Positions 35,723-60,710 of a DNA stretch of 64,000 nt are shown here, in pieces. Source of the DNA: Sulfurimonas sp. HSL3-1 (lineage in GTDB: Bacteria > Campylobacterota > Campylobacteria > Campylobacterales > Sulfurimonadaceae); assembly GCF_039645995.1 (NCBI RefSeq), contig NZ_CP147920.1, forward strand, positions 1,736,001 through 1,800,000, written 5' to 3'. The position numbers were made by a program, and so were the translations under genes. Numbering within the stretch: position 1 is the stretch's first letter; every line of letters starts with the position of its first letter. The notes under the pieces are model-generated. The model searched no databases, had not been told where the DNA came from, and saw only the letters and a program-made list of their open reading frames with translations.

Positions 35723-36928
35723 ATGCAGCAAGAGCACATTGTCATTCTCGGCGGCGGTTACGGCGGCTTGCGGGCCGTCGAACATCTCGCCGGCGACCCG
35801 CGCTTTCGCATCACGCTGATCGACCGCCACCCCTACCACTACCTGCAGACCGAAGCCTACGGCTACATCGCCGGGCGCTTCGACATCCACGACATCACGA
35901 TAGACCTTGCGAACTGGTGCCGGGGCTTCGGCCGGCATGTCGCTTTCAAGCAGGCGGAAATCACCGGCGTCGACCCGGAGGCGAAGGAAGTCGTTTTGGA
36001 ACATGAACGCATCCCCTATGACAGCCTTATCGTCGCCACCGGGGCACGCACGAACTTCTTCGCGTTTATCAAGGGCCTGCGCGAAAACAGCTACGGGGTC
36101 AAGAACCTCCAGCGCGCCTTCGCCTTCCGCCAGACCTTCGAACAGCTCGTCTACACCAAGGTCGAAGAGACCCGCGACCCAGAGCCGGCCGAGCTGCAGA
36201 TCGCCATCGGCGGGGCGGGGCTCAGCGGCGTCGAGATCGCCGCGGAAATGGCCGACGTCATCGAAAAACACCACAAGACCCTCGGTACCAATGCGAAGAA
36301 GATCAGGATCACCCTCATCGACGCGGCCGACACGATCCTGCCGGGGATGAGCAGCTATATTGTCAACCGTACGGCAAAGCGCCTGGAATCGCTGGGAATC
36401 CGGATCCTGACCAACGCCTTTATCGACCGGGTCGAGGATGGCGCCATCCACCTCAAAGACGGCACGGCCCTCTCCTACCGTTTTATGATCTTCACCGGGG
36501 GGATCATCGCCAATACGCTGCAGAGCGACGTGCCCCTTGAGACAAACCGGCTGGGCCAGATCGTTCCCGATGCCTATTTGCGCCTCTCCCCCCACATGAA
36601 TGTCTACGCGGTCGGCGACTGCGTCGAACTCAAAGACGCGAAAGGCAACCTTCTCCCGCCGACGGCCCAGACGGCAGAAAAGAGCGCTGAGTACGTCGCC
36701 GCCTCCATCCGCAAACGCCTGAACGGCGACCCTGTTTCCCCATTCCACGCCAAGGTCGACGGCGTCTTTGTCGCCCTGGGCGGCCGCTACGCGGTCGGCG
36801 AGCTCTTCGGCATCATCCGCGTCAGCGGCTACACGGCCTACCTGCTGAAAAAACTGATCACCAAGGGGTACTACCTCGGGCTCAAACTGCGCATCAACAC
36901 CGGCTTCAAAAAACGCACAGAGGCCTGA
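35723..36928 (+). CDS. NAD(P)H:quinone-type FAD oxidoreductase (NDH-2-like)
   Basis: Two dinucleotide folds: FAD-binding ILGGGYGGLRAVEHL at the N-terminus and NAD-binding GGAGLSGVEIAAEM near residue 160. The FAD-closing motif VYAVGDCVEL follows, then PPTAQTAEKSAEY. The C-terminal 60 residues (GYTAYLLKKLITKGYYL) may be a membrane-binding helix, as in NDH-2. It would pass electrons from NAD(P)H to quinone. RBS AAAGGA and tight spacing couple it to the EamA gene. Confidence 0.88.
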   Translation: MQQEHIVILGGGYGGLRAVEHLAGDPRFRITLIDRHPYHYLQTEAYGYIAGRFDIHDITIDLANWCRGFGRHVAFKQAEITGVDPEAKEVVLEHERIPYDSLIVATGARTNFFAFIKGLRENSYGVKNLQRAFAFRQTFEQLVYTKVEETRDPEPAELQIAIGGAGLSGVEIAAEMADVIEKHHKTLGTNAKKIRITLIDAADTILPGMSSYIVNRTAKRLESLGIRILTNAFIDRVEDGAIHLKDGTALSYRFMIFTGGIIANTLQSDVPLETNRLGQIVPDAYLRLSPHMNVYAVGDCVELKDAKGNLLPPTAQTAEKSAEYVAASIRKRLNGDPVSPFHAKVDGVFVALGGRYAVGELFGIIRVSGYTAYLLKKLITKGYYLGLKLRINTGFKKRTEA

Positions 36929-37909: not shown

Positions 37910-39058
37910 ATGAAACGCCAATTTATCCGGGAGATCCTGGATGTTATCACCGCGGACACCATCTCCTTCGCCGGAGGGCTTCCCGACGCCGACCTCTTCC
38001 CCCTCGACGCCTTCAAAACGGCGGCCGACCGCGTCCTCTCCGAGCCGGCCAGCCTGCAGTACTCGCGTTCGCAGGGGTACGCCCCCCTGCGCGAAAAGAT
38101 CGCCGAGCGCTACTGCGCCGCGGGCTTTGAAACCCGCGCGGAGGAGATTCTCATCACCACAGGCTCACAGCAGGCCATCAACCTCATAGCCTTGAGCATG
38201 CTTCCCTACGGGGTCACCGTCGAACTGCCCGCCTACCTCGGGGCGCTCAGCGCGTTCCGGCTGGCAAAAGTCAAGACCGAGGGGGTCGCGCTGGAACACG
38301 ACGGCATCGCAATGACACCGTTGAGACGCAGCATCGCCAGGACGGGAGCGGCCTACCTGATCCCAGACTTCCAGAACCCGACGGGGCTGCGCTACAGTGC
38401 CGCCAAACGCCAGGCCGTCGCCAAGGCGGTGCTGGACGCAGACGCGCTGCTGATCGAAGACGCACCCTACAGCGAGCTCTATTTCGACCATGCCTCCCTG
38501 CCCATCAGCGCAACCATGCCCGAACGCAGCTTCCACCTGGGCTCCTTTTCGAAGATCCTGGCCCCCGGCCTGCGGGTCGGGTGGGTCCGGGCCAGCGAGG
38601 CGAACCTGCGGCGGCTGCTCGTCGTCAAAGAGGCGATCGACCTGCATACGTCGACACTGGACCAGCGCCTGATCGACGCGTTTTGGGAGACCGAGGGGCT
38701 TGACCGCCACCTCTCATCGCTGCGCATCCATTACCGGGCTAAAAAAAACGCGCTCTCCAACGCACTGCGCACCCAGCTGCCCGACTTCGTTTTTGACGAG
38801 CCCCGCGGCGGCATGTTCCTCTACGGGAGGCTGCCCGGCTTTGACACGAAAACATTGGTCAACCGCTGCTTGGAGCGCGGGGTCGCCTTCGTCCCCGGCA
38901 GCGAGTTCTACCCCGGCACGCCTGCGCTCGACGAGCTCCGGCTCAATTTCACCCACACCGACCCGGCGCAGATGCACCGCGGCGTCGGACTGATGGCCGA
39001 TGCCTACCGCGAACAGATCGTTTCGAAAATAACGGGGGTGGCCAGGGCCACTGCATGA
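37910..39058 (+). CDS. PLP-dependent aminotransferase (class I, 2-aminoadipate/MocR-like group)
   Basis: The fold type I core is clear: YAPLREKIAERY, ITTGSQQAIN, IPDFQNPTGLRYS, EDAPYSELYF, the lysine segment GSFSKILAPGLRVGW, and ARATA at the end. The pattern matches the 2-aminoadipate/valine-pyruvate group rather than AspAT. Substrate unknown. It overlaps the PsiE-like gene by four bases and is divergent from the AraC/GyrI gene, which may control it. Confidence 0.9.
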   Translation: MKRQFIREILDVITADTISFAGGLPDADLFPLDAFKTAADRVLSEPASLQYSRSQGYAPLREKIAERYCAAGFETRAEEILITTGSQQAINLIALSMLPYGVTVELPAYLGALSAFRLAKVKTEGVALEHDGIAMTPLRRSIARTGAAYLIPDFQNPTGLRYSAAKRQAVAKAVLDADALLIEDAPYSELYFDHASLPISATMPERSFHLGSFSKILAPGLRVGWVRASEANLRRLLVVKEAIDLHTSTLDQRLIDAFWETEGLDRHLSSLRIHYRAKKNALSNALRTQLPDFVFDEPRGGMFLYGRLPGFDTKTLVNRCLERGVAFVPGSEFYPGTPALDELRLNFTHTDPAQMHRGVGLMADAYREQIVSKITGVARATA

Positions 39059-39552
39059 AAACCGCTTCGCACGCCTTTACGGAGAGGATGGCCGCACGCT
39101 TCGAGACCTTCGACCGGACCATCGAAGCCCGTCTCGACCTTGTCTTTTCCAAACTGATCACCGGGCTCAAATACGCCTTTATCGCCGTGATGGTGCTCTA
39201 CCTGGCCGTCTGCATCCTGAGCCTGTCGCACAAGATCGTCTCCTTTACCCTGGACCAGGGGGCGCTCGATTTCCGCTCCATCAAGATGATCCTGACCGAC
39301 GGCCTCTTCGTGCTCATCGTCATTGCCATTACGCGGACCTTCCTGATCCGCAGCGCGTTCAACTATGCCCTGACCCTGCTCGAGATCGGTTTCGTCGTTA
39401 TCATCCGCAAACTCATCCTGCTCGACACTGTCCCGGAGGAGACGGGGCTGATGCTCGTGCTGAGCCTCACGTCGACACTCTTTTTCCTGCTCATCGTCTA
39501 CATCCACAATCTCCGGCGCCGCTGGAACAGGGAGGACGGCGCGGGGGATTAA
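39055..39552 (+). CDS. PsiE-like membrane protein
   Basis: Four TM helices (about residues 37-57, 80-100, 105-125, 135-155), with an amphipathic start. The phosphate-starvation-inducible E (PF06146) pattern is visible in TFLIRSAFNYALTLLEIGFV. Function unknown; some members respond to phosphate starvation. The start overlaps the aminotransferase stop (ATGA). Confidence 0.75.
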   Translation: MKTASHAFTERMAARFETFDRTIEARLDLVFSKLITGLKYAFIAVMVLYLAVCILSLSHKIVSFTLDQGALDFRSIKMILTDGLFVLIVIAITRTFLIRSAFNYALTLLEIGFVVIIRKLILLDTVPEETGLMLVLSLTSTLFFLLIVYIHNLRRRWNREDGAGD

Positions 39553-39614: not shown

Positions 39615-40184
39615 ATGAAACCCTTCACAAAAATGGCCGTTATCGCGGCCGCCAGCCTCGCTTTTGCCACGACGGCAGCCGCTGCCTGCGGCGGCCAAAG
39701 CACTCCGCAGGGCATGCACGGCACCGCCGACAACAAAATGCATATCGCCCGCAAAGTCGTCAATGCCGTCAGCCAGACGGGGCTCAGTGCCGCTCAGACA
39801 CAGGCCGTCACCGACGCCATCAACACCTTCAAAGCCAAACAGATGACACGCAAAGCCGCCAAAACATTCCCCATCGACGCCTTCGGGGAAAAAGCCTTTG
39901 ATGCCAAGCAGTTCAAAGCGGCGCAACAGAAGCAGTTCGATGCCAAGATCGACGCCATGACCGAACTCTTCACCACCATCTACGCCGTGTTGACTCCGGA
40001 ACAGCGCCCCGTCTTCAAGCGCGCCTTCACCGCACCGATGGTCAAGATGATGATCAAACGCAACATGATCAAAGGTGGTATGAAAAGCGGCGGCGGCATG
40101 CAAAAGAGCGGCATGAAAGGCGCGGGCATGAAAAACAGCAATATGAAATGCGGGGGGATGAAGTGCGGCGGCATGTCCCACTGA
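39615..40184 (+). CDS. Spy/CpxP-like periplasmic protein with Met/Cys/Gly-rich tail
   Basis: A signal peptide is followed by a helical body with an LTPEQRPVFKR motif of the LTXXQ (CpxP/Spy) group. The last 35 residues are a low-complexity tail of GGM, KSGM and KCGGMKCGGM units, holding about ten Met and two Cys plus a terminal His, likely to bind Cu(I) or another soft metal. ATG 39615 has an AGGAG; the longer frame adds 12 residues. It is first of the cytochrome and two-component locus. Confidence 0.75.
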   Translation: MKPFTKMAVIAAASLAFATTAAAACGGQSTPQGMHGTADNKMHIARKVVNAVSQTGLSAAQTQAVTDAINTFKAKQMTRKAAKTFPIDAFGEKAFDAKQFKAAQQKQFDAKIDAMTELFTTIYAVLTPEQRPVFKRAFTAPMVKMMIKRNMIKGGMKSGGGMQKSGMKGAGMKNSNMKCGGMKCGGMSH

Positions 40185-40322
40185 GAAGCGAACCCGCCAC
40201 CATCTATTGAACCGTACCGTACTCCCTCCCCGCGCGGCCGGGAAGCGGTCGGACGCACACTTCAGCACTCCTCCATTCCGAGACGTATTTCTCCCTCAAT
40301 ACCCCGTTACTTTGTAAAGAGA

Positions 40323-40354
40323 GTGTCAAGAAACGCCCCTTGTCGTCTTGACAC
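40323..40354. promoter_or_regulatory. Inverted repeat upstream of the SHP cytochrome gene
   Basis: GTGTCAAGA-N14-TCTTGACAC has perfect 9-bp arms; the second arm contains TTGACA, a -35-like hexamer. It is a candidate operator for the downstream OmpR-type regulator, or a hairpin. The rest of 40185-40395 holds no gene. Confidence 0.4.
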
Positions 40355-40395
40355 CTTGGTACTACCATGTGAACATCTGAATACAAGGAGTACCT

Positions 40396-40788
40396 ATGAA
40401 ATCCATTCTGATCGCCGTCGTCTGCGCTTCGTCCCTTATGGCGGCGAGCCCGGAAGTCGGCAACTACATGCAACAGCTTCAGACAGAAGCGTCCGAACCG
40501 TTTGACGCCGCGCGCGGCGAAGCGCTCTTTACCGCCGAACAGATCGGCAAAAAAGGGACGAAGATCGCCTGCACCAGTTGCCACGGCAGCGACCTGACCC
40601 AAAAAGGGAAAAACGTCAATACCGGCAAGATCATCGACGCGCTCTCCCCGGGAGCCAACCCCGCGCGCCTCACTTCGCTCAAAGAGGTCAAAAAATGGCT
40701 GCGCCGTAACTTCAAGGATGTCTATAACCGCGAGGGAACGGCCCAGGAAAAAGGTGATGTCCTCACCTACATCATGCAATACCGCTAA
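40396..40788 (+). CDS. Sphaeroides-heme-protein-type cytochrome c (DUF1924)
   Basis: Signal peptide, then a single CTSCH heme motif (C59, C62, H63) in the DUF1924/SHP fold. In Rhodobacter sphaeroides SHP the sixth ligand is an asparagine that moves away to bind O2 or NO; Asn105 in WLRRNFKD is the likely counterpart. The two cysteines usual nearby are absent here. It is followed 10 bp later by DHC and then cytochrome b561, the known SHP gene set. RBS AAGGAG. Confidence 0.85.
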   Translation: MKSILIAVVCASSLMAASPEVGNYMQQLQTEASEPFDAARGEALFTAEQIGKKGTKIACTSCHGSDLTQKGKNVNTGKIIDALSPGANPARLTSLKEVKKWLRRNFKDVYNREGTAQEKGDVLTYIMQYR

Positions 40789-40798
40789 GGAGTTTACA

Positions 40799-41395
40799 AT
40801 GAAAAAGCATCTCTTTGTTATCACGTGCGCACTGCTGGCAGTCGGTTCGGTCTACCTCGCGGCGGATGACCATTACGAAAAACACAATGCGCAGAGGTAT
40901 GAAAAAACCGCTGCCGAGGATGCCGTCACGTCCGGCGGCCAAAAACGCAGCACAGCACCGGTCGAAACGACCTCCGCGCGTCTTTACAAAAACGAGTGCG
41001 GCGCCTGCCATATGGCCTACCAGCCGGGCCTGCTCCCCCGTGCCTCCTGGACACGTATGATGGTGTCGCTTGGGGACCATTTCGGGACCGATGCAACCCT
41101 TGAGCCGGCCGATGCGGCAGAGCTTGCCGCCTATCTCGACGCGAATGCCTACGTAAGCGCGCCTTCATCGAAACATATGGCGAGGATCGCCAAATCCGTC
41201 TCCGCGGACGCGCCGATGCAGATTAGCCAAGCCGGCTACTTCGTCAAGGAACACCGAAGAATTCCGCAACGCGCTATCGTTCAGCCCGATGTCAAGAGTC
41301 TTGCGAACTGCAACGCCTGCCATACGAAGGCCGAAAACGGTAGCTACCGTGAACGGGAGATCTTTATCCCGAACTACGGGCGCTGGGACGACTGA
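40799..41395 (+). CDS. Diheme cytochrome c (DHC)
   Basis: Exported protein with two heme motifs, CGACH (in YKNECGACHMAYQPGLLP) and CNACH near the C-terminus, and DHC-specific text (GLLPRASWTRMM, GDHFGTDATL). DHC is the reductant of SHP in purple bacteria, likely in the periplasm. ATG 40799 follows GGAG; the longer frame overlaps SHP and is rejected. The protein is homologous to the C-terminal half of the next gene. Confidence 0.9.
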   Translation: MKKHLFVITCALLAVGSVYLAADDHYEKHNAQRYEKTAAEDAVTSGGQKRSTAPVETTSARLYKNECGACHMAYQPGLLPRASWTRMMVSLGDHFGTDATLEPADAAELAAYLDANAYVSAPSSKHMARIAKSVSADAPMQISQAGYFVKEHRRIPQRAIVQPDVKSLANCNACHTKAENGSYREREIFIPNYGRWDD

Positions 41396-41425
41396 CGCAT
41401 CTGCGCGTCAACCCGGAGGTGAACC

Positions 41426-42541
41426 ATGAAAAATAGCTATATCTGGAGTCTGCCAACACGCCTCTTCCACGGGCTGCTCGTGCTCTTTATCCTCGGTGCC
41501 TACCTGAGCGCCGAAGAGGAGAGCTGGCTGCTCTGGCACGCGGCGTTCGGTTTCGCCGTCGGTGCCCTGCTGCTTTTCCGTATCGTCTGGGGCTTTTGGG
41601 GGCCGGAGCATTCCCGTTTCGCCGATTTCGACCTGAAACTCTCCTCGTTGAAGACCTACATGCTGACGCTGCTAAACTCGCACAAAACGTACGCAGGCCA
41701 TAACCCCGCCGCCAGTTTCGCCGTGATCGGTATTATCGCCGTGACACTGCTGCTCGTGCTGACGGGCCTGCTCACCTACGGTGTCCAGGAGAACCGCGGG
41801 CTCTTCGCTTTCCTGCACGGCACGTTTTTCAAGAAGATGGAACTGTTCGAGGAACTCCATGAACTCCTCGGGGCCCTGCTTTATCTCCTCATAGGGGCCC
41901 ATATCGCAGGCGTTTTCCTCGACCGTCTCCTGCACCCTTCCCACGGCACGCTGCGCTCCATTGTCAGCGGATACAAACCCATTGAAGGCCGCAGTGTCAA
42001 ACTGACATTCTTTCAAAAAGCCATCGCGCTACTGGGCATTGGGCTCGCCCTCGCGACCCCCGTTTACCTGCTGACGGTGCGCGACAACCCCCTTACCGCC
42101 ACACACACGGCCGCCGTCGATTACCGAACGGAGCATCCGCTCTTCGCCAACGAATGCGCGGCGTGCCATACCCTTTATCCCCCCTCGCTGCTACCCGGCC
42201 GTTCCTGGCGGCGCCTGATGGCGGATCTGGAGAACCATTTCGGCGACGATGCCTCGCTGGAGGCGGCCGAGACCCAAAACATCCTGGCCTACCTTGTCGC
42301 CAACGCGGCGGAACACGCCACCTCCGAGGCCGCCTTCAAGCTATCGGCCTCTATGTCAAATATGGATATCATAGCAGTGACGCAGACACCGTTCTGGAAA
42401 AAGACCCACCGCAGGATCGCCGCGGACATTTTCGCACGCGACGCGGTCAAAGGCAGGGCCAACTGCAAAGCCTGCCACAGCGACGTTGAACGCGGCCTGC
42501 TCGAGGATACGAATATCACGATACCGGGAGAAAGGAGTTGA
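41426..42541 (+). CDS. Cytochrome b561-type membrane protein fused to a diheme cytochrome c domain
   Basis: Residues 1-200: four TM helices with paired histidines (LPTRLFHGL, WHAAFGF, HELLGALLY, GAHIAGVF), the Ni/Fe-hydrogenase b-type cytochrome fold that takes electrons from quinol. Residues 205-371: DHC-like domain with CAACH (NECAACHTLYPPSLLPG) and CKACH. This fuses the two partners that are separate in the classical SHP set. It gives a route from quinol to diheme c to SHP. Confidence 0.9.
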   Translation: MKNSYIWSLPTRLFHGLLVLFILGAYLSAEEESWLLWHAAFGFAVGALLLFRIVWGFWGPEHSRFADFDLKLSSLKTYMLTLLNSHKTYAGHNPAASFAVIGIIAVTLLLVLTGLLTYGVQENRGLFAFLHGTFFKKMELFEELHELLGALLYLLIGAHIAGVFLDRLLHPSHGTLRSIVSGYKPIEGRSVKLTFFQKAIALLGIGLALATPVYLLTVRDNPLTATHTAAVDYRTEHPLFANECAACHTLYPPSLLPGRSWRRLMADLENHFGDDASLEAAETQNILAYLVANAAEHATSEAAFKLSASMSNMDIIAVTQTPFWKKTHRRIAADIFARDAVKGRANCKACHSDVERGLLEDTNITIPGERS

Positions 42542-42542
42542 G

Positions 42543-42923
42543 ATGCGTTTCATCGTTCTGATTGCCCTGCTTTTCACCCTGCTGGCGGCGGACCACGACG
42601 ACCACCGCGAACACCACATGCCGATGGACATCAGCTACCTCGACCTCACTCCGCAGCAGCATGAACGCGTCGAGAAGATCGCCCGCGACTACCGCAAAGC
42701 CCATCACCGCCTCAACCGCCTCGAAGCACAGACCCGCGACTCCGTCAGGGCCCTCTTCGAAGCCGAACGTTTCGACCGGACAAAATTTCTCGAACTGACT
42801 ACGGCGCTGCAGAACGAAAACGACAAAGTCCAGGCGGATTTTTTCGAAGCGCTCCACGCCGTTTTGACCCCGATGCAGCGCAAACGCTTCACCCCCTACC
42901 TGGAGGAGTGGGAACGTGACTAA
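42543..42923 (+). CDS. Small Spy/CpxP-like periplasmic protein
   Basis: Signal peptide (LIALLFTLLAA), a His/Asp-rich stretch (DHDDHREHHM) likely to bind metal, then a helical LTPQQHERV and a second LTPMQRKRF motif, matching the LTXXQ pattern. ATG 42543 is one base after the cytochrome b561 stop (AAGGAG upstream). It overlaps the response regulator start by eight bases and may be a stress reporter for the kinase. Confidence 0.75.
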   Translation: MRFIVLIALLFTLLAADHDDHREHHMPMDISYLDLTPQQHERVEKIARDYRKAHHRLNRLEAQTRDSVRALFEAERFDRTKFLELTTALQNENDKVQADFFEALHAVLTPMQRKRFTPYLEEWERD

Positions 42924-43587
42924 GCGGGTAATGCTGATCGAAGATGACCGGGCCATGCAGGCGCTTATCAGCGGCTACCTCACCGATTACGGTTACGGCG
43001 TCAGCAGTTTCGGCGACCCCCGCAGCGCCCTCGAAGCACTGAAACAGCACAAAGAGGCGTTCGATATCGTCATCCTCGACCTGATGCTGCCCGGCATGGA
43101 CGGTTTTGACGCCGCCAGGACGATCAAATCCGTCAGCGACATCCCCATCATCATCTCCTCCGCCCGCGGCGACATCGGCAACAAGATCCACGGTTTTGAG
43201 CTCGGCGTCGACGACTATCTTGCCAAACCCTACGAACCGCGGGAGCTCATCCTGCGCATCGAGGCGGTCCTGCGCCGCTACGGCAACGCCCCGCAGCTGC
43301 AAGTCTCGGACTTCACCGTCGACGAACAGAGCAGAACGGTCAGTATGGAGGGGTACCCCGTCGACCTCACCCCCGTGGAGTTCGAGATCTTCCTTTTCCT
43401 GCTGAAAAACCGCGGCAACAACGTCTCGCGGGAGCAGATCGTCCACGCCACTTCGCTGGAACCCGAGACCAAGGGACGCACCGTCGACATGCACATCAGC
43501 AACATCCGCCTCAAAATAGGCGACAGCGCCAAATCCCCCAGCTACATCAAGTCAGTCTGGGGGATCGGCTACCGCTTCATAGGTTGA
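42916..43587 (+). CDS. OmpR-family response regulator
   Basis: Receiver with D10/D11, phosphoacceptor D55 in ILDLMLPG, and the K in AKPYEPREL. The winged-helix C-terminal half has SREQIVHATSL and VWGIGYRF. GTG start 42916. It is followed five bases later by its kinase. Likely controls the SHP/DHC and Spy-like genes; the resemblance to CpxR/CpxP is suggestive only. Confidence 0.93.
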   Translation: MTKRVMLIEDDRAMQALISGYLTDYGYGVSSFGDPRSALEALKQHKEAFDIVILDLMLPGMDGFDAARTIKSVSDIPIIISSARGDIGNKIHGFELGVDDYLAKPYEPRELILRIEAVLRRYGNAPQLQVSDFTVDEQSRTVSMEGYPVDLTPVEFEIFLFLLKNRGNNVSREQIVHATSLEPETKGRTVDMHISNIRLKIGDSAKSPSYIKSVWGIGYRFIG

Positions 43588-43591
43588 TCCG

Positions 43592-44833
43592 ATGTCCATT
43601 TTCCGAAAAATCATCCTGCTTTTTTCCGCCAGCCTGCTGCTGATGCTTGCCATCGGCTACCAGGTAGACGCCATGTATACCCAGCGGACCGAAGCCCTCG
43701 TCACACAGCAGTACCTTGACGATGCCCGAAAACTCTACGGGTTGCTGGCGACGACCGAACCCGAGGCGCTTGCAGCGGCCCTCCCCTCGATGGGCTTTGA
43801 AGCGGTCGAATCAACGCAGGCGACCGGGGCCGAGCCCCTGCTTGAACGCCCCCACTCCTTCGGGGATATGCGGATCCTGAAGACGCGCGACGGCACCTAT
43901 CTGCTGGCCATCCGCTACATGGAGACCGCATTGCTGCTGCGGGACACCGCTCTCGACGGCACCCTTCAGGGGCGGTGGCTTCCCCATCTGCTTGTCGGGC
44001 TCGATATCGTCCTGCTGGTCATGATCTTCCTTGTCATCATCGCCATGCTGGCCCCCCTGGGACACCTTGCCGCCAAGATGCGGGCCTTTGCCGAAGGAGA
44101 TTACGACAGCCGCTCCGATGTTCCTGGGCGTGACGAGATCGGGGCCGTCGCCGAAACCTACAACCACCTCGCCCAGCGCCTGCAGGACACGATCGTTGCG
44201 CGCGAAGCGCTCCTGCGCGATATCGGCCATGAACTCCGGACACCCATTGCCCGCGGCATGTTCGCCGCAGAGAAGCTCCCCGATTCCGACGAAAAAAAGC
44301 TGCTTCGGCGCTGCTTTTCGGAACTGGAGTCCATGACAAGCGAGCTCCTTGAAGTGGAGAAGCTCTCCGTCACCGGGGAGCTGGATCTCCAGACGATCCG
44401 CGCGGAAACGCTCATACTGCAGGCGCTCTCGAAAATGATGATCGACGACGAGGAGAAAGTTTCCATTGCACTTGACGAGGATTTCGATCTTGAGGGCGAT
44501 CCCCTCTACCTCTCCATCGCACTCAAAAACCTCATAGACAATGCGCTGAAATACGCCACTGCGTACCCGGTGACGGTTACGGCCGGGGCCGGCAGGATCT
44601 GTGTCCGCAATCGGGGCAAGCCGTTAAGAGAACCGGTTGCAAAGGCCCTGGCTCCTTTCCGGCGCGGGGTGCACTCACGGCGCCAGAAAGGGTTCGGTCT
44701 GGGCCTCTCCATCTTGGCCAAGGTCCTGGAACGGCATGCCCTTCCGCTCTCGCACCGTTACGAAGAGGGGTGGCACTGCTTCTGCATCGATTTTAGCCCC
44801 GCACAGCGCCAAAAGGGCAGTGAGACCGGATAA
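43592..44833 (+). CDS. Sensor histidine kinase (CpxA-like layout)
   Basis: TM 7-27, a periplasmic domain of about 100 residues, TM 131-152, HAMP, then H-box with H213 in GHELRTPIARG, N-box NLIDNALKYA and G-box KGFGLGLSILAKVL. Its ATPase part is short but complete. It partners the response regulator upstream. The periplasmic domain has no recognised ligand. Confidence 0.92.
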   Translation: MSIFRKIILLFSASLLLMLAIGYQVDAMYTQRTEALVTQQYLDDARKLYGLLATTEPEALAAALPSMGFEAVESTQATGAEPLLERPHSFGDMRILKTRDGTYLLAIRYMETALLLRDTALDGTLQGRWLPHLLVGLDIVLLVMIFLVIIAMLAPLGHLAAKMRAFAEGDYDSRSDVPGRDEIGAVAETYNHLAQRLQDTIVAREALLRDIGHELRTPIARGMFAAEKLPDSDEKKLLRRCFSELESMTSELLEVEKLSVTGELDLQTIRAETLILQALSKMMIDDEEKVSIALDEDFDLEGDPLYLSIALKNLIDNALKYATAYPVTVTAGAGRICVRNRGKPLREPVAKALAPFRRGVHSRRQKGFGLGLSILAKVLERHALPLSHRYEEGWHCFCIDFSPAQRQKGSETG

Positions 44834-60404: not shown

Positions 60405-60710
60405 ATGTATTCCTGTCAATAGGGGAGTACGTGTAGGATCCTCCAAGGATCCGAACGTTCCCTCAAGCCTGCCAAATATCCGAAAACATTATCGATCCAG
60501 GCTGTGGTGAAAAAAAATTGTTAAGGTAATCAAAGGATGGCTATGCGCAATCGAAGGATGACGAAAACGGAGTCAGTCGCAGACCGTGGTGCGCTGAAAG
60601 TATTGACATTATACCATAACCCCTACTTCATCGGTTCGCAGCCTGCACCTCACCGACAGAGAGCATGCTCTTCTTGCTCCCCGGAGGAGAGCGGCGTGAG
60701 CTTTTCAGGC

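Follow-up and report, generated by a model that had tools for sequence, protein, structure and literature searches.

SHP, a c-type heme protein with a DUF1924 domain, has been known for decades. An SHP gene and the genes around it are described here from Sulfurimonas sp. HSL3-1 (own genome a single contig of 2.50 Mb), where they lie in a stretch of 64,000 nucleotides that was analysed as a whole and is called the window (G000:C1:1736001-1800000). Six of these genes, SHP - sDHC - CytB/mDHC - LTXXQ2 - regulator - kinase, probably constitute one self-regulated unit, namely the known SHP operon as it occurs in Campylobacterota, with a switch formed by the Spy-like LTXXQ2 and the kinase. In window coordinates, the features are:

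40313..40334, + strand: predicted operator, direct repeat TGTAAAGAGAG-TGTCAAGAAAC with an 11-bp period (29.2 bits; the window's genus was excluded from the training of the matrix)
40346..40353, + strand: TCTTGACA, a possible third half-site, inverted, between the repeat and the SHP start
40363..40368, + strand: possible, weak -10-like box TACCAT, assigned by eye from the position of TATAAT/TATACT-like boxes in other loci
40396..40788, + strand: SHP (DUF1924) c-type heme protein (PF09086, 118.9 bits, cut-off 22.5) with CTSCH heme site and distal motif WLRRNF, without Cys pair
40799..41395, + strand: soluble diheme cytochrome c, sDHC (PF09626, 126.6 bits; 3u99, E 6.8e-27)
41426..42541, + strand: cytochrome b561 fused to a membrane diheme cytochrome c, CytB/mDHC (PF01292, 80.9 bits, residues 7-182; PF09626, 113 bits, residues 241-357)
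42543..42923, + strand: LTXXQ2, Spy/CpxP-like periplasmic protein (PF13801, Metal_resist, 39.8 bits; PF07813, 29.3 bits)
42916..43587, + strand: OmpR/PhoB-type response regulator (PF00072, PF00486)
43592..44833, + strand: sensor histidine kinase (HAMP, HisKA, HATPase_c) with a short periplasmic alpha/beta domain according to model and fold search
39615..40184, + strand: LTXXQ1, a small LTXXQ-motif protein (PF07813, 24.4 bits, barely over the cut-off of 24.3); a neighbour outside the module

An earlier note on this DNA had described an SHP/DHC/b561 electron-transfer locus with Spy-like proteins and a two-component system. All seven genes were recovered by Pfam where it had placed them, and the fusion of b561 to a second diheme domain that it had proposed is borne out by PF01292 and PF09626 in a single frame. 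SHP, a diheme cytochrome c (DHC) and a membrane cytochrome b stand in one cluster, the combination by which an SHP operon is recognized, and named relatives of the window SHP occur in Sulfuricurvum, Sulfurimonas, and Sulfurovum. From SHP to the kinase all genes are codirectional, neighbours being separated by 1-30 nt or overlapping by 8 nt, and are therefore likely to form one transcript.

SHP has been reported in more than 40 proteobacteria (PMC2909971; Meyer et al., 2010), and the attribution of the gene set to purple bacteria in the earlier note was too narrow. The accessible parts of that survey list the CytB/mDHC chimera for Rb. sphaeroides and its kin, Rhodoferax, C. fetus, A. butzleri, Sulfurospirillum, and W. 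succinogenes, place SHP before CytB in the epsilon species discussed, and confine a third kinase type, SK3, to C. fetus and A. butzleri. For epsilonproteobacteria, the fused CytB/mDHC and its linkage to a kinase and a regulator were already published there in 2010 and are not new, and the note's remark that the combination is unusual is not supported. Beyond the content of those parts, the LTXXQ member, the breadth of distribution and the predicted operator look new. In the literature searched, no earlier mention was found of the link to LTXXQ, of the operator, or of the frameshift discussed below; the coverage was partial and does not show absence from print.

Conservation of the gene set and its predicted operator

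A search for PF09086 gave matches above the cut-off in 11 of 60 relatives and in 58 of 298 genomes of the class, the window's included. These 58 and four from the first search (G007, G014, G021, and G059) make up 62 SHP loci, the genes of which were labelled with profiles grown from the window proteins. A sub-cut-off match in G052 and second matches in G151 (just over the cut-off), G200, G186, and G265 lie outside the 62 loci. Counts from alignments, motifs and trees cover 61 loci, L105 having been added after the profiles were built. All 62 loci have a DHC close to SHP and on its strand, and LTXXQ2, regulator and kinase are all present in 39. The synteny, which the earlier note had proposed to check, is far beyond chance, and LTXXQ2 belongs to the unit.

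The association of the kinase with SHP is nearly exclusive. A kinase profile (A1), built from 16 of the 42 kinases found near SHP, scores at least 440 bits in 40 of the 298 genomes, namely in 38 of the 58 with SHP vs 2 of the 240 without it. Below this level follow one partial match of 397 bits (G273, no SHP) and then only scores of at most 360 bits. This score gap is a firmer point than the Fisher value (p 7e-31), which is overstated because the profile was trained on SHP loci, only the six best candidates per genome were scored, and the genomes are related, so that the rows are not independent. The kinase is nearly dedicated to the SHP operon. Strict dedication was considered as well and had to be softened in view of G040, G100, G273, and a paralogous set in G323. 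G040 has a regulator-kinase pair at a contig end, whereas in G273 a regulator stands with a truncated kinase, and an operator match of 22.2 bits lies near them. G100 (L124:4855-8847) is a natural deletion: DHC, CytB/mDHC, LTXXQ2, regulator, kinase, and operator are kept, the repeat standing at the start of the sDHC frame, and SHP is gone.

Two published or related layouts invite comparison. The SK3-type SHP operon of C. fetus and A. butzleri likewise has SHP before a CytB/mDHC chimera, an sDHC, a linked kinase and regulator, and an SHP without the Cys pair; however, SK3 was said to be unique to these two species, whereas full-length matches to the window's kinase type occur in 40 of 298 genomes, and neither LTXXQ2 nor the operator was met in the accessible parts of its description (PMC2909971). 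A kinase of the window's profile is also present in two loci, L065 and L077. Both loci presumably resemble C. fetus, judging from an S-layer-like neighbour. The SHP operon on a Ruegeria plasmid (L108) also combines a small periplasmic protein, a regulator and a kinase with SHP, DHC, and CytB, but the small protein is PepSY instead of LTXXQ and the gene order differs. Its layout suggests the SK1/Orf1 type of the 2010 survey, as far as that source is accessible (PMC2909971).

OmpR/PhoB-type regulators bind 11-bp direct repeats. A direct repeat, TGTMAAGAAAnTGTCAAGAAA, precedes SHP in all 41 loci with a kinase and in one of the 20 without. The latter is the incomplete locus L100, which lies at a contig end and whose genome carries a regulator-kinase pair at the end of another contig (kinase score 320). 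A de novo motif search in the 220 nt upstream of SHP, made with 30 of the 41 kinase-bearing loci including the window (11 near-duplicates were omitted), returned TGTaAAGAAAtTGTCAAGAAA with a log-likelihood of 375 vs 60-68 in five shuffled sets, for which fewer starts were used. After retraining of the matrix without the window and its congener (L045), all 39 training loci with a kinase scored 11.9-33.1 bits, with the match between -81 and -103 in 38 loci and at -138 in the remaining one; the two held-out loci scored 29.2 bits at -83. Among the loci without an adjacent kinase, 19 of 20 remained below -3 and the twentieth, L100, reached 11.5; the maximum in 1220 single-base shuffles was 10.9 bits. 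In its own genome, the core pattern is perfect at 40313-40334 alone, and five further sites have two mismatches. The repeat is thus likely a single-target operator of the linked regulator. Its GTMAA repeats resemble the CpxR box. A full copy of TCTTGACA follows 10-12 nt after the repeat in 8 of the 41 loci; another 21 have a copy that agrees at 6 or 7 of the 8 positions. The paralogous sets of G323 and G127 gave no match above 11 bits in the matrix scan. The dedicated two-component system of the earlier note is upheld by the kinase co-occurrence and by the predicted operator before SHP, with the restriction to "nearly" dedicated.

The second-best operator-like match in the window, of 19.8 bits, lies at 60508-60529 and adjoins a DEAD-box-helicase-like frame.

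Proposed working of the operon and competing explanations

The gene set, its tight spacing and conservation, the near-exclusive co-occurrence with the kinase, and the co-occurrence with the operator are the observations on which an explanation has to build. According to the one that we favour, quinol would reduce the b561 hemes, and electrons would pass through the fused diheme domain and the soluble diheme cytochrome to SHP. Reduced SHP, with its Asn-ligated heme, would react with O2 and/or NO in the periplasm, possibly as a protective oxygenase or NO dioxygenase. LTXXQ2 may hold the kinase down like CpxP or Spy until misfolding, redox or metal stress draws LTXXQ2 away. The phosphorylated regulator would then bind the direct repeat at 40313-40334 and raise the whole operon, its own genes included. 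Taken together, the operon is of an ordinary type; it has a Spy-like member that had been overlooked, likely a single-target operator and, in relatives, likely a used frameshift. With a predicted single-target operator and a dedicated switch of Spy-like protein and kinase, the inducing signal can be tested directly, and this signal should point to the job of SHP, for which the accessible parts of the 2010 survey offered just candidate functions (PMC2909971).

Several observations weigh against this explanation. L065 and L077 keep regulator and kinase without LTXXQ2, which is therefore dispensable, and 19 of the 62 loci have none of LTXXQ2, regulator, and kinase, so that the cytochromes work without this switch. 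L054 is incomplete, with the kinase before SHP, LTXXQ2 after it, and no regulator found nearby. The kinase profile was itself trained on SHP loci, and the six best candidates per genome were scored. Beside its SHP operon, G323 (L126:6373-11060) has a second set of an LTXXQ2-like protein (without Pfam match), regulator, and kinase, which adjoins DsbD and a redoxin and has no operator match. The tree implies about five changes of the kinase, and the operator follows in just three of four supported independent pairs (p 0.25); the fourth pair involves a contig-end locus or shows no difference, and the pairs are too few for a test. Finally, a disulfide that keeps the heme ligand labile in a relative is absent here, and the expression data cited below come from another species with another regulator.

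The assignment of LTXXQ2 as Spy/CpxP-like is supported by sequence and more weakly by fold. In 21 aligned rows, the motifs L33xL35xxxQ39 and L108xxxQ112 of the LTXXQ family are invariant; with W123, their named residues (L33, L35, Q39, L108, and Q112) are the only invariant columns, and none is a classic metal ligand. Profile comparison gave E-values of 2.4e-10 for Spy, 0.0035 for CpxP, and 0.24 for ZraP. The predicted model (pLDDT 88.8) has a helical fold, with CpxP, ZraP, and Spy as top folds at weak E-values of 0.13-0.24 (none at 0.001) and probabilities of 0.96-0.99. In the kinase model (pLDDT 81.5), the periplasmic part is a short alpha/beta domain, and the best fold match is WalK, followed by CpxA, EnvZ, and others. 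The earlier note's term "CpxAR-like" for the pair is a fair one, CpxA being among the closest kinase-core folds, but a generic one, as WalK ranks first and such cores are generic. With the Cpx system of E. coli (CpxP-CpxR-CpxA), the window shares a Spy/CpxP-like periplasmic protein, an OmpR-type regulator, and CpxA among the nearest kinase cores. It differs in that a CpxA-type periplasmic sensor domain had no Pfam match in the window kinase at E 0.01, in the 11-bp period of the operator, and in that the set is tied to one cytochrome operon.

The same operon might be switched mainly by metal, with LTXXQ2 binding it like CnrX or ZraP and the operon answering to Cu, Zn, or Fe. Consistently, PF13801 (Heavy-metal resistance) is the best Pfam match of LTXXQ2, the N-terminus of the window protein is rich in His and Asp, and ZraP and CnrX are among the fold neighbours. 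On Pseudomonadota plasmids, Ruegeria has PepSY instead of LTXXQ2 and Caballeronia has no annotated gene in that position (its gene table is incomplete); metal transporters lie near SHP in both genera, and CzcD links are mentioned in the accessible parts of the survey (PMC2909971). When A. vinosum is compared on pyrite vs sulfide, DUF1924 (log2 fold change 7.10), two DHC, b561, a regulator gene, FieF, and efflux genes (RND) all rise, according to the accessible parts of that study (PMC11267869). However, only H105 and D17 are nearly invariant among the possible metal ligands of LTXXQ2, the sequence scores favour Spy over ZraP, and no metal transporter is present among those genes directly beside the window operon that received Pfam names. 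A CnrX/ZraP-like set of metal ligands was rejected for LTXXQ2, as no such set is conserved in the 21 rows, and a switch that is mainly a metal sensor appears rather unlikely. The neighbours and the pyrite data suggest envelope, metal or redox stress but do not discriminate between the three, and control of the self-regulated operon by envelope or metal stress, as the earlier note had suggested, is plausible.

A different doubt concerns the heme protein, which may have lost gas binding and serve as a plain electron carrier for a peroxidase or another acceptor. The window SHP aligns with 1dw0 (E 2.3e-20), an entry labelled just "cytochrome c" in PDB that fits Rb. sphaeroides SHP by the residue numbering in PMC2909971. 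The DUF1924 domain contains the CXXCH heme site (CTSCH), and WLRRN aligns with WLGRN of 1dw0, which provides Asn as the sixth ligand with Trp four residues before it. Phe and Gly occupy the positions of the C89-C97 disulfide, and Cys is found at neither position in any of 61 Campylobacterota SHP rows. In cytochrome c'' such a disulfide governs ligand release, which would favour the electron carrier; among SHPs, it is common but not universal, and its absence in three published epsilon species was the reason not to take it as defining (accessible parts of PMC2909971). The same rows retain the distal Trp in 61 and the Asn in 60 of 61 cases, and the loss of gas binding is improbable in our opinion. 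In relatives, DHC reduces SHP, and the Rb. sphaeroides protein takes up O2 and NO as ligands and is active as an NO dioxygenase, according to the accessible parts of the survey (PMC2909971). The window sDHC aligns with 3u99, a diheme cytochrome c, and O2/NO chemistry of the window SHP is plausible.

In the SHP of L078 (G220), a gap deletes the conserved stretch with the distal Asn ligand; the remaining operon genes are present.

Least probable, if by little, is that the kinase senses the envelope or lipid-A state and that SHP is one member of an envelope-modification regulon: in family f9, probably the Arcobacteraceae, 9 of 11 loci have a gene for the phosphoethanolamine transferase EptA upstream of SHP and on its strand (L051, L058, L069, L070, L079, L082, L098, L103, and L105; Pfam for all nine), in most with PAP2 (six) and/or DgkA (six) between them, assigned by place and length with Pfam on three of each, but this neighbourhood was seen in f9 alone, L058 has EptA but neither kinase nor operator, the repeat lies after the EptA/PAP2/DgkA genes and directly before SHP, and the window's own genome has one perfect operator pattern only.

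LTXXQ1 was rejected as a member of the module, being present in two congeners that lack SHP and having no operator nearby. Its copies in the same-genus genomes G004 and G006, both without SHP match, are 83% and 82% identical, and the order there is a pyridine-nucleotide oxidoreductase gene (window counterpart at 35723-36928), LTXXQ1, an AraC-aminotransferase block, and a DUF815 ATPase block, with no cytochromes between. G014 has SHP, yet both its LTXXQ1 relatives sit on contigs other than that of SHP, and the matrix scan gave no operator match near LTXXQ1. The picture of a locus framed by two LTXXQ proteins is not supported, and of the two "Spy-like proteins" only LTXXQ2 is part of the unit. 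A small membrane protein without Pfam match is encoded at 39055-39552 and is present in the congener G007; between the same genes in G004 and G006 there is no DNA match. By eye we take this product to resemble PsiE.

Frame change in the CytB/mDHC genes of family f9

CytB/mDHC is a single open reading frame in 55 of the 62 loci. In six f9 loci it is split at one site, which lies after the first heme motif of mDHC. In a wider set of 104 f9 genomes, the pattern TGY CAY ACN YTN TAY CCC WCC, with a +1 change at the proline codon, is found in 28 (8 of 20 genera; L129-L156) and the in-frame form in 11. The remaining 65 match neither pattern; two of them, G326 and G327, have an in-frame gene, and others may lack CytB/mDHC. 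In the 28 split genes, frame 0 extends for 11 codons beyond the last heme Cys (20 in L138), whereas the +1 frame is open for 109-123 codons and contains the second CxxCH in all 28. Downstream of the site, the median ratio of nonsynonymous to synonymous change (pN/pS) is 0.37 in the +1 frame vs 2.14 in frame 0 (27 split genes, 351 pairs; L136 was omitted for its short frame), and 0.34 in in-frame genes. A conserved shift site, two open frames, and purifying selection on the downstream frame are thus all found in f9.

Sequencing error is unlikely as the cause of the split, given 28 genomes in 8 genera and base runs no longer than CCC at the site; the split form also occurs in the single-contig genomes G044, G164, and G332. 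A shared dead gene is unlikely in view of the selection in the +1 frame. On balance, we lean toward a used +1 ribosomal frameshift at CTN-TAT-CCC-WCC, at which the sole type of tRNA-Pro seen (UGG) would slip from CCC to CCA or CCU, aided by an upstream hairpin; frame 0 would yield cytochrome b with a diheme stump, and the shifted frame the chimera. The tRNA search comprised 25 of the 28 split and 7 of the 11 in-frame genomes, G326, G327, and the window's own genome, and the tRNA-Pro pattern was found in 34 of 35 (no match in G327). The f9 matches have the anticodon UGG, with an odd second match in G240, and none is clearly GGG, though such a pattern cannot prove absence. In vitro, UGG tRNA-Pro tends to change frame when it reads CCC, as reported for CCC-CG (PMC4519876), and +1 shifts at proline codons are exploited by Listeria phages (PMC5009743). 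A paper that joins programmed frameshifting with Arcobacter was not found in the literature searched, which was covered in part. The hairpin just upstream of the shift site is full in all 28 split genes; its role in shifting is only suggestive, because it also occurs in 7 of 11 in-frame f9 genes and in 2 of 19 in-frame matches among the earlier loci, and because two-sided base changes were absent in the 16 of 28 split loci that were folded.

In a tree of 39 genes, the label split or in-frame changes seven times, at least six times on well-supported branches, with gain and loss indistinguishable. The frame change looks old in the family and would often have returned to the in-frame form. If the frameshift is used, one f9 gene could yield two forms that other bacteria encode separately, and a chromosomal electron-transfer gene would join the known bacterial +1 frameshift genes. 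To our knowledge, these are few. The chimera frame of L052 (G055), which belongs to another family, is broken at another site and was excluded from the f9 count. The window CytB/mDHC is in frame although CCC is present at the corresponding place.

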